Shown here piece by piece: positions 4,094 to 16,097 of a DNA stretch of 16,097 bases. The notes under the pieces were generated by a model, which was given only the letters and a program-made list of their open reading frames with translations, searched no databases and had not been told where the DNA came from. The stretch's first letter is position 1. The number at the start of each line of letters is the position of its first letter. Origin of the DNA: Bacillota bacterium (GTDB taxonomy: Bacteria; Bacillota_A; Clostridia; Lachnospirales; Lachnospiraceae); the NCBI GenBank assembly GCA_023443925.1, contig JAEZSL010000227.1:1-16097 (forward strand), in the 5' to 3' direction. Position numbers and translations under genes: made by a program.

Positions 4094-4120
4094 CAAAAAA
4101 AGTCCTCCGTCTGAAAGGAC
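4094..4120 (-). terminator. T-box regulated intrinsic terminator
   Basis: On the minus strand, a GTCCTT / GAGGAC stem with a short loop is followed by a seven-T run. It competes with the antiterminator built on the T-box sequence at 4127-4140. Confidence 0.9.
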
Positions 4121-4396
4121 GAAGAACCGTGGTACCACCTTTGTTTACGGCATTCCATAGACTGCCGCCTTTGTGCTGTTATTCAGCCGGTCTGTAACGG
4201 GACCTCCCGTTATTTCTTACTCTGCTTTCAGAAATCCTGTTCCGGAGCTACCTTCGATAAACATTCCTTAAGATGACCTTTCAGCCGGCGGGCCATCCTC
4301 TCTGTTAAGATGATTTATCTAATCCTCTCCATCCATACATTTATACCTTATTATATTCTTAAAAACAATACAGCGCAGGCTGTTTCAACCTGCTTC
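4094..4396 (-). ncRNA. T-box leader (tRNA-Val responsive) of valS
   Basis: The conserved T-box sequence AGGTGGTACCACGG lies at 4127-4140 on the minus strand. It is followed by an intrinsic terminator: the GTCCTT/GAGGAC hairpin at about 4102-4120, then a seven-T run at 4094-4101. Upstream, a Stem I-like region has complementary GGAG and CUCC segments flanking the specifier region. The triplet GTA at 4249-4251, inside GAAGGTAGCTCC, is the best candidate specifier codon and reads valine, matching the downstream gene. Established mechanism: uncharged tRNA pairs with the specifier and, through its NCCA end, with the T-box bulge, which favours the antiterminator. The specifier assignment is my inference; the T-box itself is unmistakable. 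Confidence 0.95.
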
Positions 4397-4402
4397 TATA
4401 CT

Positions 4403-4431
4403 ATCATATGAAATGAATCCGATTCTGTCAA
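4403..4431 (-). promoter_or_regulatory. valS / T-box promoter
   Basis: A perfect TTGACA (4426-4431) and TATGAT (4403-4408) are separated by exactly 17 bp on the minus strand. Predicted start is near 4396. The -35 box is only 14 bp beyond the stop codon of the upstream operon's last gene (4446). Confidence 0.9.
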
Positions 4432-4445
4432 GACATTTTTCCCTT

Positions 4446-5675
4446 TTACAAATATATCCCGTACAGCCTGAGCTTTTCAGTTACTTCCTCCAGGTTTTCG
4501 GGTCTTTTATTAATAAATTCCTGTATATCCCTGATGCTTTTGTCTTTCAGACTATTGTTGTAGTCAATCCGGTCCCTGAGTTTTTTTCTTCTGGTTTCCA
4601 GACGCCTGCGTACCTCATCCATTTCCACACGGTCCATAAGCGCCGCAATCTGGTGCACCCAGATATCCGGGTCCTTTAAATCCTGACTTTTAAGTTCCTT
4701 TACCAGATCTTTTTTATAGTATTCCAACTGTTCCATGTTTTTATTAAAGACTCTTTCTTCTTCCTTTGCCTTTAAATACTGTTCCCATAAAAACTGAAGT
4801 TCCGCATAGCTGTTAACCATATATTTCTGGTATGAGTAATCCAGTTCACTGGTATTGTTAATATACTTAATTTTCACCTTATTCAGCAGTCCGATGGCCC
4901 TATTCAGCTTCAATTCCGTCACTTTCATCTCTTTTCGGTTGCTGCCGGAATTAATAAAAATATAAAATGCTGAAATTGCAGCCAGAGCAATGGTCATTAA
5001 GAAGGGTATCTGCATATCCGCTTTTGTGGAATTCTGAACCAGGATAAATACGGTGAATAAAATCAGTACCACAATACAAGTGGCTGCTGCTATTCCTTTT
5101 AAATAGCTATGTCTGCTGAAAATTTCCTCTCTCTGGTAATTAAGCGCACCTTTTTCTCCCTCCAGATATTTCATGTCCGTTTTGATGGTATCCTGGTAAA
5201 CCTCGTTTTTTTTCATTCTTTTTAGCTCTGTCGGAAGTACCTCTTCATACCTGGCCATATTCTTAAACTGAACATCTGTTATCTTTCTGGCTTTATTCTG
5301 GTGATTGGACCGTTCTTTGGTATAGGCGGTGATTTTTTTTGCCGTATCGTTCAAATATTGCCTATCCTCCTCCGGCAATCGGTCCAGCTTCTGGATATCG
5401 GCCAGATAGGAGGTGACGGCCTGAAACTCTGTTTTTAGTTCCTCCAGCTGTTTACCGGTCTCTAAAATCTGTTCACAGTTATCGATAATAAAATTACCCC
5501 GGTCTGAACCGGAACCGAAATTTACTTTCTTTTCATCCAGCTTCAAAATTGTTTCTTTATCCGCTTCTGTCATTGTATCAGTCACCAAGCCGTTATCTTG
5601 TATATCAGCCGCGCTTTTTGGTGCTTCTGTTTTTTTACCCTTCCTCTTAGAAAAAATCTTACTAAAAATGCCCAT
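4446..5675 (-). CDS. Coiled-coil protein with two central membrane helices, unknown function
   Basis: This 409-residue protein starts MGIFSKIFSKRKGKK, a short amphipathic, very basic N-terminus with no cleavable signal. Residues ~65-185 are charged and helical, probably coiled coil. Two hydrophobic helices follow at ~192-214 and ~222-242, joined by a loop of only about seven residues. A second long charged coiled-coil region covers ~245-400, and the protein ends LRLYGIYL. Basic flanks on both sides suggest both arms are cytoplasmic, giving a membrane hairpin anchor (inference). AGGAG lies 9 nt before the ATG and abuts the stop of the preceding gene, from which it is 15 nt away. It is the last gene of the four-gene operon, with no terminator before the valS promoter. 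I recognise no named family. Its likely job is to tether the other three products to the membrane. Confidence 0.88.
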   Translation of the reverse strand: MGIFSKIFSKRKGKKTEAPKSAADIQDNGLVTDTMTEADKETILKLDEKKVNFGSGSDRGNFIIDNCEQILETGKQLEELKTEFQAVTSYLADIQKLDRLPEEDRQYLNDTAKKITAYTKERSNHQNKARKITDVQFKNMARYEEVLPTELKRMKKNEVYQDTIKTDMKYLEGEKGALNYQREEIFSRHSYLKGIAAATCIVVLILFTVFILVQNSTKADMQIPFLMTIALAAISAFYIFINSGSNRKEMKVTELKLNRAIGLLNKVKIKYINNTSELDYSYQKYMVNSYAELQFLWEQYLKAKEEERVFNKNMEQLEYYKKDLVKELKSQDLKDPDIWVHQIAALMDRVEMDEVRRRLETRRKKLRDRIDYNNSLKDKSIRDIQEFINKRPENLEEVTEKLRLYGIYL

Positions 5676-5690
5676 CTGTCTTCACTCCTG

Positions 5691-6527
5691 CTACAGGTTT
5701 TCCTTCCGGAATTCCTGTTTCCACCGATTGATTACATCCCCTGCCATATCATAAAAGGGAACGATTCTGCCATTTTCTTTCTGTTCCTTAAGATTACCTA
5801 TAACCTGATAGTCCTCGGAGGCTTCTGCCTCCTCATAAAAGTTCTCAAGTTCATTCCGAAGCAGTTCCAGGTAATCCAGTGAGGCACCGTAATTCATAAC
5901 CTCTTTTTCCAATCTTTCGTCCTGCCTGGTCAGAATCAGCGCGTAAAAATACTGTCTTAAGGATTCTTTGTTATGACTCCTCTCATAGGCTTCCTTAAAC
6001 CGTTCCGCCGCTTCCGCCAGTCCCATGGTATTTATCTGGGCAACTGCCAGATTGTGCATCAGACTTCCATAAGCTACGCTGTCTGTTCCAGCGGCATCTG
6101 TACTGTCCAGAAGGGATTCATATTCAGCCTGGGCGGCCGTAAACCGCCTGTATTTTACATAATTATCCGCTTTCTTCTTTCTTTTATCAAAGGGTGATAA
6201 ATGTACAAACTCATCCATGGTATGAATCAGCTTCTTAATCTCATCTTCGGAATAATAGTCCGCACTGCAAAGAATACAGACTACATAATCCTTAAGACCG
6301 GTCTTTCCTTCCAGCAGAAAACGCAGCTTATCTCCCCGTTCTTTAAGCTCTAACTCCTCCTGGATCCAGGTTACCAGGGCTTGGTCAAACAAATCCTCCT
6401 GAATGATTTCAATATTATTGTAAAGGTAATAACACAGTTCTTCTATGGAATATACATAAGTATCCGTCAATTTAAAATAATAAGGCTGTTCCGCCTGTTT
6501 ACCGTTGCATATAATTAATTTTCCCAT
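5691..6527 (-). CDS. TPR-like helical protein, unknown function
   Basis: A 278-residue soluble protein beginning MGKLIICNGKQAEQPYYFKL. The N-terminal ~95 residues form a mixed domain containing YSIEELCYYLYNN and EDLFDQALVTWIQEEL. From ~110 to ~215 the sequence is helical with TPR-type spacing, for example YRRFTAAQAEYESLLDS, then SLMHNLAVAQINTMG and AERFKEAYERSHNKESL. The C-terminus is acidic and ends with a basic stretch. No signal peptide or membrane segment is seen. GGAG lies 6 nt before the ATG. It sits between the DUF5716-like gene (82-nt gap holding a tandem repeat) and the membrane protein gene (15-nt gap). As TPRs usually bind proteins, an adaptor role in the same complex is a reasonable inference. 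No specific family name is claimed. Confidence 0.88.
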   Translation of the reverse strand: MGKLIICNGKQAEQPYYFKLTDTYVYSIEELCYYLYNNIEIIQEDLFDQALVTWIQEELELKERGDKLRFLLEGKTGLKDYVVCILCSADYYSEDEIKKLIHTMDEFVHLSPFDKRKKKADNYVKYRRFTAAQAEYESLLDSTDAAGTDSVAYGSLMHNLAVAQINTMGLAEAAERFKEAYERSHNKESLRQYFYALILTRQDERLEKEVMNYGASLDYLELLRNELENFYEEAEASEDYQVIGNLKEQKENGRIVPFYDMAGDVINRWKQEFRKENL

Positions 6528-6539
6528 AACACTCTCCTC

Positions 6540-6599
6540 ATCCGTTATGTATGCTTATATCCGTTATGTATGTCTTATATCCGTTATATATATCTTAAT
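6540..6599. repeat. ~20-bp tandem repeat, three copies
   Basis: Units at 6540-6558, 6559-6578 and 6579-6599 share ATCCGTTATRTATR followed by a variable CTTAT. Unit length drifts from 19 to 21 bp. The array fills most of the 82-bp gap between the DUF5716-like gene and the TPR-like gene, inside the operon transcript. Confidence 0.8.
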
Positions 6600-6609
6600 C
6601 TGTTAAGCC

Positions 6610-7878
6610 CTAAAAAGTAATCTCTTTCTCCCAGATCCGGTTGGAGGAAGGGTAGAAATTACCAAAGCCTTTGTCCTTAACGGAAATCACAGCCGTGTTT
6701 TTATCCAGGAATTTTATCCTTACTTCAACTCTGGTGGTCTTATTGGGTCTGAATGGAAGTCCTTCCAGCGGCAGCTTATAGACTTCCGTTTCATGTTTTA
6801 GGAGATCTTTTCTGGATATGGATATCTCCTTTGTGTCATCCAATATCAAATCCAGTTTTTCCTCCGCGCCATACCAGGGAGTGGCGGCTTTCATCAAAAC
6901 TGCCTCTGCCGGTTTGGCATCATAATAACCGTTCAAATAGAAAGTGCTGGTAATCATCTCACTGCCCAGGAGTAAAAAGTCCTCCAGCCGGCCCTCCCCG
7001 GTTAATTCCCTGGCCGTATAACAGGCTCCTTTGGCATAAAGGTTCTGGCCTTTAAATACTCTTCTTCCAATACACAGCTCTTTTAAAACATTGTCTGCCC
7101 AGGCTCCTTCAAATCCGATGCCGGTAATGTAAATCGTCGATACAATCTGTTTATGAAGTACCTTTTTAGCCAGATTGGAAAATAAGTACTCTGCTTTTTC
7201 CTTCTCTTTCAAATCCTTAAGCACCTGGAGGTTTAATACATCCTGAAAACCTTTTTCCGTGATTCCCACCGTTTGAGGCTTTGTCCTGCGGTCAATTATA
7301 ATCTGCTGATAACTTAAACCCATCTCATCAAAATCAAACAGGCCCACATCGTTCATCCATAATTCTTTTTTCTGATACAGAGCATAGTACTGGTAACTCT
7401 GGGAATGACTCTGAACAAAAGCACGGTCCTTTCCAATCCCCATATTGCACAATGCTTCGTAAATATCCGCCATTAGTTTTTCATCCGGCTCTTTCACCGT
7501 AACAACCAGTTTTAAAATGCTGTTGGAAGGAAAATAAAGCTTTAGCAGCTGAAGACTTTTTCGAAAAAACTTTTCCAGCAGGGCAACCGGTTTAAAAGGA
7601 ACTCCATAAATCTGCGTATCTTCCCCTGCCTTAATCTTAGTTAACAATCCGTCAATCAGTACTCCGCTGCCTGCCTCCTGTATAAGATAGGCTTCCTCCC
7701 CGTATACCCACTCTTTGGTCTTTTCTTTAACCCCCAGTACGGTAGGTATCAAATATTTTGTTTTATCCGAAGTGACGCAGATGGATTCCGGCTCATACGT
7801 TTTCGGATTATAGCAGCAAATCTGTGATGCTGCTTCGCAAAGGTCAAACCCAACGATAAGGCTTCTTTGTTCAACCAT
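6610..7878 (-). CDS. DUF5716-family protein, degenerate actin/Hsp70-like fold
   Basis: A 422-residue soluble protein. Its layout recalls the actin/Hsp70 ATPase core. SLIVGFDLCEA (residues 6-16) sits where Hsp70 has the phosphate-1 loop. VGLFDFDEMG (178-187) matches the phosphate-2 position, followed by a strand QQIIID. IYITGIGFEG (249-258) resembles the adenosine motif, with KGACYTA (283-289) after it. The C-terminal ~75 residues form a beta-rich domain ending in VSVKDKGFGNFYPSSN-like sequence (exact text at 398-413). The Gly/Thr residues that contact phosphate in true Hsp70 proteins are largely missing, so ATP hydrolysis is doubtful. I believe this is the DUF5716 family of Lachnospiraceae (recognition, not searched). 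A GAGG ribosome binding site precedes the ATG. It is the second gene of the operon, 94 nt after the DUF5717-like gene. Confidence 0.85.
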   Translation of the reverse strand: MVEQRSLIVGFDLCEAASQICCYNPKTYEPESICVTSDKTKYLIPTVLGVKEKTKEWVYGEEAYLIQEAGSGVLIDGLLTKIKAGEDTQIYGVPFKPVALLEKFFRKSLQLLKLYFPSNSILKLVVTVKEPDEKLMADIYEALCNMGIGKDRAFVQSHSQSYQYYALYQKKELWMNDVGLFDFDEMGLSYQQIIIDRRTKPQTVGITEKGFQDVLNLQVLKDLKEKEKAEYLFSNLAKKVLHKQIVSTIYITGIGFEGAWADNVLKELCIGRRVFKGQNLYAKGACYTARELTGEGRLEDFLLLGSEMITSTFYLNGYYDAKPAEAVLMKAATPWYGAEEKLDLILDDTKEISISRKDLLKHETEVYKLPLEGLPFRPNKTTRVEVRIKFLDKNTAVISVKDKGFGNFYPSSNRIWEKEITF

Positions 7879-7894
7879 ATTTTACCTCATTCCT

Positions 7895-7910
7895 GCGCAT
7901 CGTTGTGCGC
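7895..7910. other. Small GC-rich hairpin between DUF5717- and DUF5716-like genes
   Basis: GCGCA (7895-7899) and TGCGC (7906-7910) form a 5-bp stem with a 6-nt loop in the 94-nt gap, just upstream of the DUF5716-like ribosome binding site. There is no T-run, so it is not a terminator. It could tune translation or mRNA processing. Confidence 0.4.
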
Positions 7911-7972
7911 TATTCCCATACCAGTTTAAGTGCTGTCCATGCTGTGTAACTTCAATCGTGGGTTATCACATA

Positions 7973-10900
7973 TTAGAGCAGATGAAATAATTTATCTGTA
8001 ACATAATTTAATTTATAATAGTTACTTATACTTTCCATCAGGGTTTTATCATCCTGTACGTCCAGTGCGGTCAGCATGAAATTCAATTGATTGTACCGGG
8101 TGTCCTCCTCCAGCTTCATATTGTGATCCAGCTGTACATTTACACTTTCCGTAATGGCAAGCTGCCCTTCTTCCTCTTCTTCCGTAATGTAGTACTGGAT
8201 ATTTTCATTATAGAACAGGATAAATTCCTTGACATGGATGCCCAGATAAACATTATTCATCTCTTCGGTAGTAAAATCATCGGTGCCGTCTTTTCCTTCC
8301 AGCCGGTAATGGATGGTTACCTTATGAGAAGGATTTGTAATATACTCCACAAAGATCCGGTCATTGATACGGGACGGCAGTGTAATGGAATTCTGGAACT
8401 TCTTAAAAAAGGGAAGAATGATTCCTTTTTGTATCATTTTATGCAAATTGTAATCAACCAGCTCTTTTTCACCGTCACCCAGACTGTCCTCCTGAGACAG
8501 CTGCTTTAACAATGCCAGCATACAGACTTCATTCTCCTCATAGGTAAGCTGCCGTTTCATAATAGGGAAAAGCTCAGGTTGTATCACACGGTCCATAACC
8601 AGATATTTATAGGCATTGTAGGTTAAAAATGCCCGGATCAGCTTATGATTGGTGCCTTTTTTATAATAGCTTAAAAATACTGCCAGAGAATTGGTAATAT
8701 AACTTTCCGCAAACAGCATCTGACCCAGCAGACGTTCTTCCAGACTTCCGGTTTCCATCTCAAAACCCGAAGCTGCCAACCAGAGATCATACATCTCCCC
8801 TGTGGTGCCAAAAAAATTCTTCACCAGATAATCAAGGATTTCTTCGTTATATTTGCCTTCTCTAAAAATATGATAAGCCAGACTAACCAGTATACCGTTA
8901 TTTTCTTCATCGATACCGTTTCTTTGAAGCAGCGCAGAACACAGTTTAATTAAACGCTTTACCGCAACTCCCTGGAATCCGAATTCCGTAAGTGCCTTCA
9001 GTGCTTTGTCATACAGATCCCTGATAATGAATAATTCAATTATCTTATCCCGGTCGGCTTTATTAAGACCACCTACCTCGATTCTATGCAGGTAGTTTTC
9101 CAGCAGCTCTCCTTCAAAATTATCATAATAATAAGAAACCAGATCCAGATTAATTTTATTATAATAACTGTCGTCCAAACCAGGAATATCCAATATCTGT
9201 TTTCTGATCTCTATGGACTGTGGGTCAAATTTCTGATAGGTCTGCACTTTCTCCGACAGATTCAATAATACCATGGGGTGTTTCACTTTCATATCGTAAC
9301 AGGTATTGATATAATACTCCCAGTGCATTAGTTTATTCAATATGTATTCTGCCGTAGCAGCATACCGGTTGTCGGTTCCGTCCACCAGAAAAATCTCCGC
9401 ATCTTCCGTGTAGATATCCACATAGGCTGTTCCGGAGGAAAACGGAGTAAAGACTTCCTCCCGCATTTCTTTATGTACGACAAGAACCCCTTTCATATTG
9501 GGGTTATTGCAGACAATTTCGTGCTTGAACATAACAAAGGGCAGTTCTGCCGCTATTTCCGGAGTCATGGGCTGGGTTGCCAGAATTTCCTCATATAGCA
9601 GGGCCAGATTAGCATTCATATTATGTGCTGTAAGCTGTCTAACCACAAACTGCTCAATCCGCTTTAAGTAGGACCGGTACATGGCGGGCAGACTTTCCTT
9701 GCGTTTTACGATATAAGCGTAGAGATAGGCTTTCTTACGGTCATTTAGACTGCTGTTGTAGATAAAATATAAAAGTATCTGCTGCGGCAGCACCGTATCC
9801 GGATTCTCATTAACGGAATACATATAATATTCATAGAGTTCCGTAATCCGCAGCTGTTCCTCCACACCTTCCCGGTACCAGGTAAAATACCTGCCGCTTC
9901 TTTGCTGCCCTTTGATGAGATGGCTGCAGATGGCTGTCAGTATTTCTTTATTCCCGTATTTTGGGTACAGTTTCTCCAGGCAGTGATGGACAGTCCGGCT
10001 GAAAAACTTTTTCTTTCCCGCAAGATAGGTATACTGCATCGCTGCTTCTTCCATGATATATTCATTTTTTATACTCCAGTTTAGGACCTGGAATTCGAAT
10101 TCCTGTAATTCATGCAGAAGGGACGGCTCTTCGTTAAATATGACTGCCGCCTCAAAATATAAAATCGGGCTCCTGCATCCGTTCTTATATTGTTCTTTGA
10201 TATCCTCCAGTTTTAAAGCTTTATTGATATCATACTTTTTGTCGACGTATAACAGAAACCATAGCAGCTGCCAGTCACGGCTGCCGCTTTCGTAACGGCC
10301 CCGGATGGTATTCAGGGCTTCCGTTATGGCAGCTTCATCCTTGTTTAGAAGCGCCTTAAGGTATAGATACCCGCAATAAAGCAGAATGTTTGACTCTTTA
10401 TCGCAATGCGTACTCCCTTTATCGCAATGCGTACTCTCTTTTTCGCAATTCGCAGTTTCTGTATAGTTTTGCAGATTTTCCCCTGCCCTCATCTCTTCTC
10501 CGGATATGATCAACAGGTGGATCCGCAGCAGCTGATAGTAATCCTGGTTGCTTCCATCAAGGGCTATTAACCGCTCCAGTAAAGCTTCCGTGTCACTGAC
10601 ATAATCCTTTAGGGGCAGCAGGTTCCTTCTAAACTCCAGATAGTTGTGCGTAATTTTATACCGGTACTGTTTTATTTTTTTATGTTCCGTCTCTTTATCC
10701 GTGCCTGCCCTGTTCTTATGGCAGCAAACTTCCACGGTTATAGTTCCATGGGGCGAAGCAAGGAAAATTCGTCCGAAATTATTGCCGGGCCGCATGGCAG
10801 ACGGGTTCAGCACAAATTCCAGCGGATAGTTATTCCCAACAAAATTCTCGGCCCAGATAATCTTGTGTTCCGGAACCAGGAATAGCGCATCTGTACTGAC

Positions 10901-11578
10901 ATTAATTTTGGCATAGCCCCAGTTATCTTTTATCAGCGTTATTTTATCCATCATACTCTCATTGCGGATTTCGTAATGCAGCACTGTTTTATCCACGGAT
11001 ATATTCACCGGGATTTTCTTGCGGATTGCAATTAGAAATTCTTCCATGGCCTGGCTTATGGATCTGCTTTTAACGATATTCTGGTAAAGCAGCAGGAATT
11101 TTATATCATGATGAATTAAGATTTCTTTAAACTCTTTGGATTTAAAAAGCTTAATTGCCTCAGCCGTATCCGTCCTGGCAAGGTTGGTAAAATTAAAAAG
11201 ATCTTTTATTTTACCAATGGAGGAGTCAATATAAGGTGCTTCAATACTTACGGTAAAGGGCAGAATAATCTCACCGCAGTCACTTACAATGCAGACCTCC
11301 CCTTTCACCGTCTCCAGAGGACTCATATTCTCACCGTAAAAAGTATATTGAATCTCATTTTCCCGTTCCGTAAAACGGTTCTGTTCCAAACGGAACAATT
11401 CATTGGATGAGTAAAGAATCCCTTTAATTGGAGTATTCTTATCATTTTTCACGGTAAAACTACCGGTATAATTCTTACCTGCATCAACCGTAATCACAAG
11501 TTCTTCTTCCGACAACAGGATTCCAGGCGTTTCAAACTCAAAAACTCCTTTCGATAACCGATCCACTTTTTCTTTCAA
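7973..11578 (-). CDS. DUF5717-family large scaffold protein (Ig-like + helical repeats)
   Basis: A 1201-residue cytoplasmic protein with no signal or membrane segment. Residues ~20-110 look like an Ig-like beta sandwich (ELVITVDAGKNYTGSFTVKN). A helical linker with KIKDLFNFTNLA follows. A second beta domain at ~195-295 contains VLHYEIRNES and WAENFVGNNYPLEF. Residues ~320-1070 are an alpha-solenoid of TPR-like helices, interrupted around 720-790 by a beta-rich insert (AYVDIYTEDAEIFLVDGTD). The last ~120 residues are a mixed C-terminal domain ending YVTDKLFHLL. A 7-residue tandem repeat lies at 377-397. The start is TTG, with GGTGG 5 nt upstream; the nearby ATG at 11582 is out of frame. I recognise it as DUF5717 (not searched). 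It is the first gene of the operon, consistent with a scaffold role. Confidence 0.87.
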   Translation of the reverse strand: MKEKVDRLSKGVFEFETPGILLSEEELVITVDAGKNYTGSFTVKNDKNTPIKGILYSSNELFRLEQNRFTERENEIQYTFYGENMSPLETVKGEVCIVSDCGEIILPFTVSIEAPYIDSSIGKIKDLFNFTNLARTDTAEAIKLFKSKEFKEILIHHDIKFLLLYQNIVKSRSISQAMEEFLIAIRKKIPVNISVDKTVLHYEIRNESMMDKITLIKDNWGYAKINVSTDALFLVPEHKIIWAENFVGNNYPLEFVLNPSAMRPGNNFGRIFLASPHGTITVEVCCHKNRAGTDKETEHKKIKQYRYKITHNYLEFRRNLLPLKDYVSDTEALLERLIALDGSNQDYYQLLRIHLLIISGEEMRAGENLQNYTETANCEKESTHCDKGSTHCDKESNILLYCGYLYLKALLNKDEAAITEALNTIRGRYESGSRDWQLLWFLLYVDKKYDINKALKLEDIKEQYKNGCRSPILYFEAAVIFNEEPSLLHELQEFEFQVLNWSIKNEYIMEEAAMQYTYLAGKKKFFSRTVHHCLEKLYPKYGNKEILTAICSHLIKGQQRSGRYFTWYREGVEEQLRITELYEYYMYSVNENPDTVLPQQILLYFIYNSSLNDRKKAYLYAYIVKRKESLPAMYRSYLKRIEQFVVRQLTAHNMNANLALLYEEILATQPMTPEIAAELPFVMFKHEIVCNNPNMKGVLVVHKEMREEVFTPFSSGTAYVDIYTEDAEIFLVDGTDNRYAATAEYILNKLMHWEYYINTCYDMKVKHPMVLLNLSEKVQTYQKFDPQSIEIRKQILDIPGLDDSYYNKINLDLVSYYYDNFEGELLENYLHRIEVGGLNKADRDKIIELFIIRDLYDKALKALTEFGFQGVAVKRLIKLCSALLQRNGIDEENNGILVSLAYHIFREGKYNEEILDYLVKNFFGTTGEMYDLWLAASGFEMETGSLEERLLGQMLFAESYITNSLAVFLSYYKKGTNHKLIRAFLTYNAYKYLVMDRVIQPELFPIMKRQLTYEENEVCMLALLKQLSQEDSLGDGEKELVDYNLHKMIQKGIILPFFKKFQNSITLPSRINDRIFVEYITNPSHKVTIHYRLEGKDGTDDFTTEEMNNVYLGIHVKEFILFYNENIQYYITEEEEEGQLAITESVNVQLDHNMKLEEDTRYNQLNFMLTALDVQDDKTLMESISNYYKLNYVTDKLFHLL
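10388..10450. repeat. 21-bp in-frame tandem repeat inside the DUF5717-like gene
   Basis: Three 21-bp units (10388-10408, 10409-10429, 10430-10450) encode three 7-residue repeats: NCEKEST, HCDKGST and HCDKESN (residues 377-397). Each unit carries one cysteine. The length preserves the frame, as expected for replication-slippage expansion in a surface loop between solenoid helices. Confidence 0.9.
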
Positions 11579-11657
11579 TCATTCCACCCCAAGCTTTGGA
11601 TAATATTGTTTTGTATTTTTGAAATTATTTTTAGTATTTATTTTATGTTATTTTGGT

Positions 11658-11761
11658 ATTTGTTTCTTGTATTTATTTCTTATATTTGTTTCTTGTATTT
11701 ATTTCTTGTATTTGTTTCTTGTGTTTATTTCTTGTATTTATTTCTTATATTTATATTTAAT
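11658..11761. repeat. 13-bp tandem repeat, eight units, in the leader of the DUF5717 operon
   Basis: Eight consecutive 13-bp units run from 11658, the first seven close copies and the last degenerate. On the plus strand the core is RTTTRTTTCTTRT. On the transcribed (minus-sense) strand it reads AYAAGAAAYAAAY, almost free of G and C. G- and A-containing variants alternate in part, suggesting a 26-bp super-period. The array lies about 80-185 nt before the TTG start and downstream of the predicted promoter, so it would form much of an unstructured, A-rich 5' UTR. Confidence 0.92.
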
Positions 11762-11888
11762 ATTTTGTTTGTAATTTTTTGTAATTTCATTTTTATTTCT
11801 TTTCTAATATGGCTTTTTTCATTATTTGAATATACCACTGTATATTACATTATTCTGTATTGCATTTTTCCGAATTTAAATTATAATA

Positions 11889-11918
11889 ATTATAACACTA
11901 ATCGACATATTTAAGCAA
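11889..11918 (-). promoter_or_regulatory. Promoter of the DUF5717/DUF5716 operon
   Basis: TTGCTT (11913-11918), 18 bp, then TATAAT (11889-11894) on the minus strand, with an extended -10 (TGT before TATAAT). A second TATAAT occurs at 11880-11885. Predicted start near 11882 leaves a leader of about 300 nt. Confidence 0.65.
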
Positions 11919-12285: not shown

Positions 12286-13383
12286 ATGCTGACACCAAAA
12301 GAACATTTTCACGGAAGTGATTTAGAAAAAATTGAAGCTTATTATGGTATTAGAAAAGAGGATATTACCAGTTTTTCAGCCAATGTAAATCCCTTAGGCA
12401 TCTCGGATAAGTTAAGAAACGGTCTTGCGGATAAAATCGATGCCATTACAGGTTATCCGGACAGAGAATATACCTCTCTTCGAAAATGCATAGGCGCATA
12501 TGTCCACGCGGACCCGGAGCAGATCGTTGTGGGTAACGGAACGACGGAGTTAATCTCCCTCTGCATTCAGATTACCCATCCAAAAAAAGCACTGATACTC
12601 GGGCCCACCTATTCGGAATATGAAAGGGAAGTTGCTTTTGGCGGTGGCAGCTCTGAATATTTCCGGTTGGAAGAGACGGATGATTTCCGGCTGAATGTGG
12701 AAGATCTGAAAAAGGAGCTGACTTCGGATTTTGATCTGCTGGTGATCTGCAATCCCAATAATCCCACTTCTTCCGCTATCCCCTTACCGGATATGAGAAA
12801 AATTCTGGATATCTGCAAGCAGCGCAGTATTGTATGTATGATAGACGAAACCTATGTAGAATTTGCAGTGAAAACAGAAGAAATTACCGCTGTTTCCCTG
12901 GCAAGTTATTATAACAATATTATTATTTTAAGAGGAATCTCCAAGTTTTTTGCCGCTCCTGGCCTGCGTTTAGGATATGCTATTTGCGGCAATGCAGATC
13001 TTTTAAAATTGTTGAACCAGCGGAAAAATCCCTGGACTATCAACACCCTGGCTGCTATTGCAGGAGAAATCATGTTTACCGATACTGATTATATCAATAA
13101 GACCAGAGCGTTGATAAAACAGGAAAGGGAAAGAGTCTGCGGACTTCTCTCCTCCTGCCCTAATGTAAAGGTATACCCACCCGCTGCCAATTTTGTACTG
13201 GTTAAGATATTAAAAGACGGGATTACTTCCGCCGATGTATTTGACGCCGCTATAAGGAAAGGATACATGATCCGAGACTGCTCTACCTTTCCCTTTTTGG
13301 ATCAAAGATTTATCCGCTTCTGTTTTATGACGGAAGAAAAGAATACCGAATTGGTTAATCTGCTGTTAGATATCCTGGGGTAA
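12286..13383 (+). CDS. PLP-dependent aminotransferase, HisC/CobD type
   Basis: Fold-type I PLP enzyme of 365 residues, full length for the histidinol-phosphate aminotransferase / threonine-phosphate decarboxylase group. Visible motifs are FSANVNPLG near residue 30, GNGTTELI (83-90), CNPNNPT (155-161), IDETYVEF with the cofactor Asp at 187, SKFFAAPGLRLGY with the Schiff-base Lys at 220, and RFIRFCF with the substrate-binding Arg at 344. The N-terminus HFHGSDLEKIEAYYG resembles the CobD-like subfamily more than classical HisC. GGAAGGA lies 8 nt before the ATG. It stands alone, with no histidine or cobalamin genes beside it, so the substrate cannot be decided from context. Its transcript ends at the bidirectional hairpin at 13476-13517. 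Confidence 0.93.
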   Translation: MLTPKEHFHGSDLEKIEAYYGIRKEDITSFSANVNPLGISDKLRNGLADKIDAITGYPDREYTSLRKCIGAYVHADPEQIVVGNGTTELISLCIQITHPKKALILGPTYSEYEREVAFGGGSSEYFRLEETDDFRLNVEDLKKELTSDFDLLVICNPNNPTSSAIPLPDMRKILDICKQRSIVCMIDETYVEFAVKTEEITAVSLASYYNNIIILRGISKFFAAPGLRLGYAICGNADLLKLLNQRKNPWTINTLAAIAGEIMFTDTDYINKTRALIKQERERVCGLLSSCPNVKVYPPAANFVLVKILKDGITSADVFDAAIRKGYMIRDCSTFPFLDQRFIRFCFMTEEKNTELVNLLLDILG

Positions 13384-13521: not shown

Positions 13522-14856
13522 TTACTTCACTCTTTCAATCCGAATAAACATCTTATCTTTATACGGCACTTCTTTTATCAGGCTGGTATTGCGGAACACC
13601 GACATCATAAGACCCAGCACTATGAAATTCACAAAAATTCCGGTACCTCCAAAGGACACAAAAGGAAAGATTACCTGGTCGATGATCCGGAATCCCAAAT
13701 TGGATAATATATAAACGACACTCTGTACGGCAAATACCAGACCGCAGCCTAATCCCACCAGCATACCCAGCGAATTCTTTCTGGTAAGGGAAATATAGAT
13801 CATCCTGGCGATAAATAAAGCAAACAAAGCTATCATGAAAATACCCGGAACAATACCCCAACGGCAGATTATATAGGTCAGGATAAAATCGTTATTATAA
13901 CCTGAAATATATTGAAAAGATATTTCGGGGACACTGCCAAATAGTTTTGAGCCGGAGAGAATTTCTCTGATTAAACTTATCTGGTATCCTCTTGCATACA
14001 GTTCCGGTTTCCATAATATCTGCAGCTTTTCAAGAAGCAGTATCAACCGATTACCACCGGAACTCATTAATATAATAAGACCGGCAGGTAATAGCCAACC
14101 GATTACCATAAAAGCTGCTTTTATTTTAGAGGTTGCGAACCAGTTTTTCGATACAGCAGTAAGCAGCATAATCAGGCAGGAAAAAAGCAAACTCAGATAT
14201 ACCGCGCTCTTGTCGATGAACTGTGTTACAACGGCAACTGCCAGAAGCACAAAGAGCAGACATTTCAAAATTCCGGTGTAACCTTTATTCCGGTAAGCAT
14301 ATATAATCCCTCCAAATAACGGGATAAACAACATACTATATACATATATATACGCCATCTGGTTATTAATCCACTTTCCAAAGGGTGCATACCCTAGTAT
14401 AACGGCAATCAACAGAAACCACATGAGTTTCGGATATCTTCCCAGAAAGGAATAATCCAGAAAATATACTCCTACCATTAACAGCAACCCGGCACTGATA
14501 AAAATAAGCTGTCTGACAATTACAGGACCCGTTATCATATTTTCAAGAGATGTATCCATACTATAGCGGGCAAATACACCTGCCAGGCATAGAATCAGGG
14601 CTGTCACAAATAATTTCCATTCAAAACGGGGCCGATGTATTTTATCCAGCTGCTTTCCCACTTCCACAGGATCTCCCATCTCTTCCAGAGCCTTCTTAGC
14701 AGCAGTAGATTCATCATGACCTTGCATTCTGTAAGATTCTTGCTGATCTTCGATATGCCGGCTGATTTCCTCCGCTGCCATATCTTTCGCCTTTCTGCAC
14801 CGGATCTGATCTGTCAGCTGTTCCAGATATTCTTCTTTTTTATCCAATGGGTTCAA
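13522..14856 (-). CDS. HAAS-domain SEDS protein (FtsW/RodA/SpoVE-like)
   Basis: Integral membrane protein of 444 residues from the TTG at 14856. The N-terminal ~75 residues form a HAAS-type helical domain (YLEQLTDQIRCRKAKDM, then HIEDQQESYRMQG and ALEEMGDPVEVGKQLDKIH). About ten membrane helices follow with SEDS landmarks: RQLIFISAGLLLM, VTQFIDKSA, ISGYNNDFILTYI carrying the conserved extracellular Asp, and FPFVSFGGTGIFVNF. True FtsW/RodA proteins have an acidic pair after DFIF; here it is CRWG, and the QPSE motif is missing, so a divergent function is likely. A GTG at 14865 gives 447 aa but touches AGGAGG; the TTG at 14856 has 8-nt spacing and is preferred. It overlaps padR by 17 nt, so the two are probably cotranscribed. 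The substrate and enzymatic activity are unknown. Confidence 0.85.
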   Translation of the reverse strand: MNPLDKKEEYLEQLTDQIRCRKAKDMAAEEISRHIEDQQESYRMQGHDESTAAKKALEEMGDPVEVGKQLDKIHRPRFEWKLFVTALILCLAGVFARYSMDTSLENMITGPVIVRQLIFISAGLLLMVGVYFLDYSFLGRYPKLMWFLLIAVILGYAPFGKWINNQMAYIYVYSMLFIPLFGGIIYAYRNKGYTGILKCLLFVLLAVAVVTQFIDKSAVYLSLLFSCLIMLLTAVSKNWFATSKIKAAFMVIGWLLPAGLIILMSSGGNRLILLLEKLQILWKPELYARGYQISLIREILSGSKLFGSVPEISFQYISGYNNDFILTYIICRWGIVPGIFMIALFALFIARMIYISLTRKNSLGMLVGLGCGLVFAVQSVVYILSNLGFRIIDQVIFPFVSFGGTGIFVNFIVLGLMMSVFRNTSLIKEVPYKDKMFIRIERVK

Positions 14857-15184
14857 AGGTAACACCTCCTATTACACCGCTTACGGCCTGGGTATATTCC
14901 TGCCACTCCTCCCGGATGGTTTTTAAATGCTGACTGCCCTTCTTCGTAATTCGATAATATTTTCTTGGTTTTGCACCCTTTGCATCCTCATAGGATTCCA
15001 GATAGTTTTTTTCCTCCAGTGAATGCAGTAATGGATATAGCGTGCCTGCTTTCAAATCAAAAACATGATTGGATCGCAGCCTCAGGATTTCTATAATCTC
15101 GTAGCCATACATATCTTTTTCCGATAACAGACTTAAAAGCAGCAGGGACGTATTTCCCGAAAGCAGTGCTTTATTTGCAGTCAT
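14840..15184 (-). CDS. PadR-family transcriptional regulator
   Basis: Cytoplasmic winged-helix regulator of 114 residues, the usual size for the short PadR subfamily (PF03551). It shows the characteristic LLLLSLLSEKDMYGYEI, then KAGTLYPLLHSLEEKNYLES and KYYRITKKGSQHL, which make up the recognition helix and wing. The C-terminal helix EEWQEYTQAVSGVI would mediate dimerisation. AAGGAGG lies 7 nt before the ATG. It overlaps the HAAS-SEDS gene and probably represses its own promoter through the palindromes at 15198-15240. PadR genes paired with HAAS-domain membrane proteins are a recurrent arrangement in Firmicutes; the inducing signal cannot be deduced. Confidence 0.95.
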   Translation of the reverse strand: MTANKALLSGNTSLLLLSLLSEKDMYGYEIIEILRLRSNHVFDLKAGTLYPLLHSLEEKNYLESYEDAKGAKPRKYYRITKKGSQHLKTIREEWQEYTQAVSGVIGGVTFEPIG

Positions 15185-15380: not shown

Positions 15381-15420
15381 AATCGTTCTAAAACTTATTC
15401 AATCGTTCTAAAACTTGTTG
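15381..15420. repeat. 20-bp tandem duplication at the end of the BtrH-like gene
   Basis: Two adjacent 20-bp units, 15381-15400 and 15401-15420, share AATCGTTCTAAAACTT; mismatches are confined to the last four bases of each unit. The duplication covers the last codons and the stop of the BtrH-like gene. Because 20 is not a multiple of three, the second copy is read in another frame and creates the TAG stop at 15388-15390. Confidence 0.88.
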
Positions 15421-16097
15421 TTCCAATACATGGATTTCATCAAGTACGTTACAATATGGCTCTAAATTTATCTTATCGTTAAACAGGTCGGCAGCTGAAA
15501 AATCCTGAGGTATCAGCTTTGCTAATTGCAGCGTATGTTCTGTAATTTTTTCATATAACTTCGCCAGATCTTCTCTTCCGTAATCATTGAAAAACGGCAC
15601 CGCATACTGCCGGTCTAAATATTGCTTATAATTACACATAACATTCAGATACGGCTCAAAATTATCTGTCCAGCTATATGTTTTAAGTGCATGAATGAAG
15701 GCTTTATGGGCTGCAAGTCCATTATACTGCCCCGGTGCAAGATTTTCTTCATGGATTAAGCGCCGTACAAGCTTTAAAGTCTCTTTTAATATTTCATCTT
15801 TATCCGGTTTTTCAGTTTTCCCTTCAATAATTAAAATTCTGCCTACACTGCCCTTAGCAAAAAAGCCGGTATGCCACCCTGATTTCCGGAAATAACCGGT
15901 ATCATCCGGCAGTTCATCATGATCCTCATTCACATACATAAATGGATTATAGCCTAATAGTACCTCTCCATCGTTATCATAACCGGAAATAACACAAGCA
16001 TCGGAGCAATTAATTACTCCTTCCAGCGTAATAACCGGCATACCCCGGTCTATGCTGTCAACAATGAGCCTCTTATCCTTTTCATAGTCCCCGCGGA
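15388..16097 (-). CDS. BtrH/C39-like protein, 5' end outside the window (partial)
   Basis: The frame is open from the right edge to the TAG at 15388, about 236 codons. An internal ATG at 16041 is not the real start, because 18 further in-frame codons (RGDYEKDKRLIVDSIDRG) fit the family pattern. SIDRGMPVITLEG, then VISGYDNDGEVLLGYNPF and DTGYFRKSGWHTG, match proteins with a BtrH N-terminal / C39-peptidase-like fold as I know them from Firmicutes. The catalytic Cys would be upstream, beyond the window. The C-terminal ~130 residues are helical, with GLAAHKAFIHALKTY and a terminal coiled coil. The known family member BtrH transfers an acyl group in butirosin synthesis, but most relatives are uncharacterised, so no substrate is proposed. 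The C-terminus has been altered by a tandem duplication. Confidence 0.8.
   Translation of the reverse strand, partial: RGDYEKDKRLIVDSIDRGMPVITLEGVINCSDACVISGYDNDGEVLLGYNPFMYVNEDHDELPDDTGYFRKSGWHTGFFAKGSVGRILIIEGKTEKPDKDEILKETLKLVRRLIHEENLAPGQYNGLAAHKAFIHALKTYSWTDNFEPYLNVMCNYKQYLDRQYAVPFFNDYGREDLAKLYEKITEHTLQLAKLIPQDFSAADLFNDKINLEPYCNVLDEIHVLEQQVLERLNKF

Follow-up and report, generated by a model that had tools for sequence, protein, structure and literature searches.

The stretch of DNA analyzed here (the window: 16,097 nucleotides of contig JAEZSL010000227.1, from a Bacillota bacterium having its nearest named relatives in Anaerocolumna, Lachnospiraceae) carries on its minus strand a row of four genes including members of the DUF5717 and DUF5716 families, bordered by a divergent CobD/HisC-like aminotransferase gene (cobD) and by valS. 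The DUF5716 protein is an Hsp70 homologue from which the ATP-hydrolysis residues are missing, and the row is likely to be what is left of a larger cluster of chaperone genes. The four same-strand genes, their order and their lengths of 1201, 422, 278 and 409 amino acids (aa), as claimed in an earlier reading of the sequence alone (the sequence-only reading), agreed with the open reading frame (ORF) calls. In the numbering of the window, the row and the domains of its products are as follows:

7973..11578, minus strand: gene 1, DUF5717 protein, 1201 aa, TTG start (ORF call; Pfam)
10715..11521, minus strand: N-terminal pair of PapD/ASH/MSP-type immunoglobulin-like (Ig-like) domains of gene 1 (model residues 19-287)
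8363..10696, minus strand: gene 1, alpha-solenoid (residues 294-1071 of the model; small beta insert at 684-748)
8132..8356, minus strand: gene 1, C-terminal beta-sandwich (residues 1074-1148 of the model)
6610..7878, minus strand: gene 2, DUF5716 protein, 422 aa, homologue of Hsp70 lacking the lid and the Lys and Glu of ATP hydrolysis
5691..6527, minus strand: gene 3, TPR-like protein, 278 aa (ORF call; homology across loci)
4446..5675, minus strand: gene 4, coiled-coil protein with a membrane hairpin, 409 aa, separable neighbour
4953..5093, minus strand: membrane hairpin of gene 4, hydrophobic segments at aa 195-213 and 223-241 (hydropathy scan)

Both family names were borne out by Pfam matches above the cut-offs: the product of gene 2 matches DUF5716_C (E 2.4e-104, 348.9 bits, cut-off 34.7) and that of gene 1 matches PF18984 (E 0, 1016.4 bits) and PF18983 (E 1.3e-99, 333.7 bits, cut-off 25 bits). 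DUF5716 (PF18980) and DUF5717 (PF18983, PF18984) are named in Pfam as families of unknown function, and in our literature search they were found to be named only in unrelated work. The comparison of DUF5716 with the sequences in the PDB gave nothing convincing (best E 0.024). In the structural comparison, for which the model of a homologous DUF5716-TPR fusion protein was used, the matches listed (best 50 each) were members of the Hsp70 family, many of them aligned across the beta part of the substrate-binding domain (SBD-beta) as well, and not actin or MreB; the top match was Ssz1, tied with DnaK, at 12-13% identity. DUF5716 is an Hsp70 homologue consisting of a nucleotide-binding domain (NBD) and an SBD-beta, with no lid. 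The DUF5716 part of the fusion model stops after the SBD-beta, and the lid (DnaK positions 485-619) is less than 30% filled in the alignment rows of the window-type DUF5716 sequences, which also lack a 78-residue stretch of the NBD. In the alignment, neither the Lys nor the Glu involved in ATP hydrolysis, which we take to be K70 and E171 of E. coli DnaK, was kept in any of the 100 DUF5716-type sequences, and both were present in all 56 of the DnaKs and Hsp70s of the longer array described below, a count that left out locus L039 (322 aa, length filter), the sister-lineage pieces of the array genes B and C shorter than 440 aa and the deeper pieces shorter than 380 aa. DUF5716 is predicted from these residues to be hydrolysis-dead. 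The actin/Hsp70-type fold suggested by the sequence-only reading is thus upheld in its Hsp70-like form, and the nucleotide-type switch suggested along with it is unlikely if it has to be driven by ATP hydrolysis, since the hydrolysis residues are missing. A viral origin of DUF5716 was rejected, as no relative was found among viral contigs searched with patterns from the single window protein.

The AlphaFold2 model of the DUF5717 protein (residues 2-1201, mean predicted local distance difference test (pLDDT) score 87.3) has a pair of Ig-like domains, a long alpha-solenoid and, at the C-terminus, a beta-sandwich, in agreement with the Ig-like plus alpha-solenoid architecture previously proposed, and the solenoid gives weak Foldseek matches to solenoids of the SKI3/Ctr9 type. 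In the DUF5717 gene, a 21-base in-frame repeat (10396-10449) gives the protein a CDKxSTH-like repeat, close to a loop modelled with low confidence (residues 380-392).

The TPR-like nature of the 278-aa protein, which gives just a sub-threshold Pfam TPR hint of its own (E 0.045), is supported by a sister-lineage homologue matching TPR Pfam models. The DUF5716 and TPR proteins form a single open frame in three loci (L031, L036 and L043), and the same fusion occurs in proteins P0241-P0243 and P0251. Since the fusions of L036 and L043 lie at different positions in the tree, this fusion arose at least twice. In the window, a 20-base tandem repeat (6540-6605, 3.4 copies) makes up the greater part of the spacer separating the DUF5716 gene from the TPR gene.

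The survey of the neighbourhoods of DUF5716 homologues, by which the sequence-only reading was checked, showed that the linkage of the genes is conserved. The DUF5716 profile scan of named genomes gave 362 relatives, the best 80 loci of which were kept, making 81 with the window. DUF5717 was present in 78 of these loci, the TPR gene in 78 (fused in three) and the coiled-coil gene in 65, and wherever they were present, the genes of the row kept the same order and strand at every one of the 81 loci. DUF5717 is missing from L004 (at a contig end), L061 and L056, and the TPR gene from L007, L008 and L056, where the contig stops just past DUF5716; four of the 16 loci without a coiled-coil gene are at contig ends (L007, L008, L019 and L056). 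cobD was found in 37 and valS in 38 of the 81 loci, many of which are cut by contig ends.

Throughout this analysis, the order means that of the Anaerocolumna genome G001, which is likely to be the order of the window. DUF5717_N was detected in 279 and DUF5716_C in 278 of the 393 order genomes sampled, and neither was detected in any of 14 control genomes. Both families were present in 275 genomes, DUF5717 alone in 4, DUF5716 alone in 3 and neither in 111; a more sensitive profile detected a DUF5716-type gene in two of the four genomes with DUF5717 alone (G082 and G133). DUF5717 and DUF5716 form a tight pair, at one locus per genome in most matching genomes; the "two copies per genome" in divergent lineages were rejected, since in most cases two parts of a single DUF5717 locus had been matched, the gene often being split into two frames. 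In a phylum-wide sample, PF18984 was found in 5 of 398 genomes, all five of which also belong to the order sample, and a sister-lineage solenoid profile gave matches in 5 of 328 genomes, four of them the same as those with PF18984 and the fifth a weak match (E 6e-4).

The four row proteins evolve fast: their median pairwise distances are 0.61-0.65, as compared with 0.26 for ValS and 0.32 for CobD (different numbers of loci). The partial rank correlations between their distances, given those of CobD (31 shared loci), were 0.74 for DUF5717-DUF5716 and 0.69 for DUF5716-TPR, the latter being 0.71 given ValS (22 loci). These mirror-tree values support a contact between the proteins, short of proof.

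The coiled-coil gene behaves differently. Its product has no Pfam match above the cut-off, and the membrane hairpin claimed for it was confirmed by the hydropathy scan, since two hydrophobic segments were found in 61 of 62 complete gene 4 sequences, including that of the window; the same scan found no hydrophobic segment in 63 of 68 DUF5717, 80 of 81 DUF5716 and 75 of 77 TPR sequences. Gene 4 is present in 203 of the 393 order genomes, namely 166 of the 275 carrying the pair, 32 with neither family and 5 with one, and it was not found in the 109 other pair-bearing genomes. In 12 of 12 genomes picked because they lacked gene 4 at the locus, a profile search found none anywhere in the genome. 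Among 15 inspected genomes of the 32 carrying gene 4 without the pair, cobD was in view in 10 and directly adjoined gene 4 in 6, and in four sister genomes (G040, G052, G063 and G083) gene 4 stands beside valS, apart from the other row genes. Gene 4 is a resident of the cobD-valS locus that can be separated from the other row genes. The obligate four-gene complex was rejected, gene 4 failing to co-occur with the pair, and the role of an obligate anchor for the coiled-coil protein, as in the sequence-only reading, is not supported. Two side observations concern this gene: in L177-L184, L190 and L191, where DUF5716 and DUF5717 were not detected, the coiled-coil hairpin gene is kept at the cobD-valS locus, and in L065, L067 and L076 the place of gene 4 after the TPR gene is taken by a 468-504 aa ORF encoding a multi-pass protein with 8-10 hydrophobic segments, MATE-like by eye and without similarity to gene 4.

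A longer array was found in genomes with weak DUF5717 scores, in which the genes occur in the order DUF5717, Hsp70-A, GrpE, DUF5716-type (B), Hsp70-C, Hsp70-VWA (D), TPR and coiled coil. In the 14 sister loci (L110-L123), DUF5717 is in two frames in 12 cases, and the order DUF5717/Hsp70-A/GrpE-type/B/Hsp70-C is complete in 9, where the GrpE-type protein was confirmed by Pfam in seven and recognized by its size and position in L114 and L121. Of the incomplete loci, two are cut by contig ends (L116 and L119), two have labels for only some of their genes (L117 and L120), and in L123 none of B, C and D was seen. The arrays of L112, L159 and L158 run on through Hsp70-D, TPR and the coiled coil to valS, D and TPR being each in two frames in L158 (genome G022). 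Eight of ten deeper loci (L167-L174) carry DUF5717, A, GrpE, B, C and D in this order with a divergent cobD adjoining; the TPR gene is labelled in five of these, an unlabelled ORF of about 310 aa taking its place in three, the coiled-coil gene comes next in seven (the contig ends in L169), and valS can be seen in four. The two short deeper loci, as labelled, hold DUF5717, DUF5716 and TPR (L175) and DUF5717 in two frames with a DUF5716-type gene (L176). Pfam detected GrpE in all eight proteins tested and HSP70 plus VWA in all four D proteins, and in the A-D proteins scanned the HSP70 match ends at profile positions 471-514 of 599, so that the lid part is reached in none. The Hsp70 relatives in the array also score against MreB_Mbl. 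In G001, G014 and G019, which belong to the lineage of the window, the proteins matching HSP70 with more than 100 bits comprise DnaK-like copies and a single longer paralogue, all encoded away from the locus. In L112 (7375-9309) and its equivalents, the GrpE domain is C-terminal in a protein of about 640 aa, the first 500 residues of which have no Pfam match.

All the DUF5716-type sequences form one clade in the DnaK-rooted tree (96/96), inside which the window type is nested with the B of G022 (100/99) and the B of five deeper loci (98/97), all of which belong to long arrays. An earlier unrooted tree including the window's own row agrees as to the grouping of the core with G022. The nesting of the window type among the B proteins of long arrays makes a reduced descendant the best reading of the row; the simplest reading of the sequences is that A, GrpE, C and D were once present and were then lost in the lineage of the window.

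Among the systems described in the literature, Ssz1 is an atypical Hsp70 consisting of an NBD and an SBD-beta, without the SBD-alpha lid, which binds ATP without hydrolysing it (PMC7083937). DUF5716 shows the same domain plan and, judging from its alignment, lacks the hydrolysis residues. The two differ in their low identity, in the NBD stretch missing from the window type and in their partners: in the ribosome-associated complex (RAC), Ssz1 is joined by the J-protein Zuo1, whereas the neighbours of DUF5716 are an Ig-like/solenoid protein and a TPR protein, and no J-domain protein was found among the window proteins or in the L112 array. As far as we know, pseudo-Hsp70s are known mainly from the eukaryotic RAC. 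Our search for Hsp70/GrpE/VWA operons, Hsp70-like operons in Lachnospiraceae or Lachnospirales, or bacterial pseudo-Hsp70s retrieved a single relevant article (PMC7159879), and the HSP70/GrpE theme reported there is the nearest published neighbourhood found. In the section concerned, the second theme of the GAP1-N2 systems combines HSP70 and GrpE with an FNIII-repeat protein, to which DnaJ or TPRs are fused, and in a subset with another HSP70 that has no peptide-binding domain; what defines the systems themselves is a GTPase together with GAP1 (Kaur et al., 2020, PMC7159879). As far as this description goes, the full array resembles it in bringing together HSP70 and GrpE, an atypical second HSP70, a protein with repeated beta-domains and TPRs, but HSP70 and GrpE occur together only in the full arrays, the window having just DUF5716; no Pfam match to a TRAFAC GTPase or GAP1 was found among ten L112/L110 proteins or ten window proteins; and of the four HSP70s of the array three have intact catalytic residues and one does not, while the reduced form has lost GrpE and the active HSP70s. 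With the canonical DnaK-GrpE system, the array shares homologous NBD and SBD-beta domains and, in its full form, a GrpE-domain protein of its own, whereas the A-D proteins scanned have no visible lid, D carries a VWA domain after its HSP70 part, DUF5716 lacks the hydrolysis Lys and Glu (Lys70/Glu147), and no DnaJ match was obtained in the L112 array or the window proteins. The gene set is best filed as Hsp70-derived and not as a member of the RAC or GAP1-N2 systems.

Since linkage and co-occurrence are conserved and DUF5716-TPR fusions occur, a physical assembly is indicated. The "one physical machine at the inner face of the membrane" of the sequence-only reading is supported as to the assembly, and not as to an obligate membrane anchor. 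We consider it somewhat more probable than the contrary that DUF5716, an Hsp70 homologue lacking the lid and the hydrolysis residues, forms with DUF5717 and the TPR protein an ATP-independent protein-binding complex, the remnant of an Hsp70-GrpE array. In this complex, the SBD-beta of DUF5716 might hold extended segments of clients or partners weakly and without a hydrolysis cycle, as in the yeast pseudo-chaperone Ssz1, while DUF5717, with its Ig-like pair and solenoid, might be the scaffold carrying DUF5716, and the TPR protein might serve for docking. In rows without the dedicated Hsp70s and GrpE, such as that of the window, any ATP-driven step would depend on the housekeeping DnaK, to which clients would be handed over, or would be lost. 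A membrane tether of the complex would be provided by the coiled-coil hairpin protein in those genomes only that keep its gene. As to its history, the order may have evolved a machine of its own (four lid-less Hsp70s, one catalytically dead and one with a VWA domain, a dedicated GrpE and an Ig/solenoid scaffold), the lineage of the window then shedding the ATP-hydrolysing parts and keeping the dead Hsp70 and its scaffold as a pseudo-chaperone comparable to the RAC, a scenario we put forward tentatively.

Several points weigh against this proposal. As no J-domain protein was seen in the window or the L112 array (a partner encoded elsewhere was not searched for), the comparison with Ssz1 covers one subunit only. 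The model of the natural DUF5716-TPR fusion has a predicted template modelling score (pTM) of 0.58 and a linker with pLDDT below 50, and shows no interface; it was obtained with alignment A4, in which about 12 N-terminal TPR residues are displaced. Given this floppy linker, the low pTM and the lack of an error matrix, no claim is made about an interface. In L061, DUF5717 sits on a different contig of the genome. cobD was in view in only 4 of the 14 sister loci, so that the location of the array is not the same in all cases. With lengths of 2.6-3.6, several B branches are very long, which makes the exact branching order less sure than the nesting, and for these branches the alignment of the catalytic columns is also unsure. 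The mirror-tree value of DUF5716-DUF5717 is only 0.53 given ValS (22 loci), and vertical inheritance alone accounts for part of all these values.

Among the other explanations, a helper of co-translational folding or membrane insertion, that is, a bacterial counterpart of the RAC meeting nascent chains near the ribosome or translocon and passing them to DnaK, is suggested by the Ssz1 plan of DUF5716 (NBD and SBD-beta, no lid, hydrolysis residues gone) and by the hairpin protein added in many genomes; we regard it as unlikely, since the window proteins and the L112 array include neither a J-domain partner nor a recognised ribosome-binding part, and the linkage with valS, which has its own T-box, probably reflects the history of the locus. 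For a cell-shape, division or secretion assembly, given as examples in the sequence-only reading, no evidence was found. In the cytoskeletal version of this idea, DUF5716 would form actin- or MreB-like polymers or act as a divisome scaffold, DUF5717 would be the scaffold of the assembly, and the coiled-coil protein would anchor it in the membrane. The fold of the actin-Hsp70 superfamily, the MreB_Mbl scores of the array Hsp70s, the hairpin of gene 4 and the presence of mostly one locus per genome in 279 of 393 order genomes, as expected of a housekeeping machine, are in keeping with it, but the structural matches listed belong to the Hsp70 family, the neighbouring relatives are Hsp70s with a GrpE protein, the anchor is dispensable, and among the genes labelled in the arrays, where not every neighbouring ORF was searched, none is a recognised division gene, all of which makes this assembly quite unlikely.

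A chaperone-type conflict or stress system akin to the GTPase-centric GAP1-N2 systems with HSP70 and GrpE is very unlikely in our opinion. The part of PMC7159879 describing their second theme does join HSP70, GrpE, an atypical HSP70 and an FNIII-repeat protein, and the full array holds HSP70s, GrpE, VWA, TPR and an Ig-like scaffold; however, the ten L112/L110 proteins gave no GTPase or GAP1 match, none of the four row proteins matches a PADLOC model (systems described by 2023 only), and a locus present in 279 of 393 order genomes with conserved cobD and valS neighbours is unlike a mobile defence island. A defence system of a kind covered by these models was set aside in view of the same PADLOC result. 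That the genes are simply neighbours inherited together without any physical complex, since vertical inheritance at one locus alone would keep their order and correlate their trees, is highly improbable when one considers that DUF5717 and DUF5716 are co-present or co-absent with 4 + 3 exceptions in 393 genomes, two of the four being lifted by the sensitive profile, that DUF5716 and TPR were fused at two places in the tree, and that the L176 array, as labelled, is reduced to the DUF5717-DUF5716 pair.

The pair had no assigned function in spite of its presence in 70% of the sampled order genomes (275/393), and the recognition of DUF5716 as a lid-less Hsp70 homologue, predicted to be hydrolysis-dead, and of a probable origin of the row from a longer array turns two "unknown" families into a testable chaperone hypothesis. 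The natural series of full array, reduced row and bare pair makes it possible to ask what the role of a pseudo-chaperone is once its active partners are lost.

The borders and candidate control sites of the row are as follows:

12286..13383, plus strand: CobD/HisC-like aminotransferase gene, divergent, upstream border (TIGR01140)
11889..11918, minus strand: candidate row promoter TTGCTT-18 nt-TATAAT, unproven (read by eye)
4112..4431, minus strand: valS promoter-like site (4431-4403) and T-box leader (4112-4344), downstream border

The CobD/HisC-like protein scores 273.8 bits against TIGR01140, under the cut-off of 290.55, and a homologue of it adjoins the longer array in other lineages as well. 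At the other border, the valS promoter-like site (4431-4403) scores 11/12 in the promoter scan and the T-box leader (4112-4344) 107.6 bits; since valS has its own promoter-like site and T-box, it forms a separate unit and the 3' end of the row is clear. The promoter reported at the front of the row remains a candidate: a perfect TATAAT can be read by eye at 11894-11889, with a poor -35 (TTGCTT) at 11918, and the site is absent from the promoter scan, the total of which (51 sites, versus 44 +/- 6.5 in shuffled sequences) is near chance. The spacer between the cobD-like and DUF5717 genes, within the presumed leader of the row, contains an AT-rich tandem array (11614-11770, 26-base period, 4.3 copies). 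Elsewhere in the window, a 217-aa ORF (15388-16041) has no Pfam or NCBIfam match at E 0.1, and at 13522-15184 a PadR-type regulator gene overlaps a gene joining a permease-prefix (HAAS-like) domain to an FtsW/RodA-like membrane domain, the product of which is an unusual SEDS-like (shape, elongation, division and sporulation) protein that may have this PadR-type regulator of its own.

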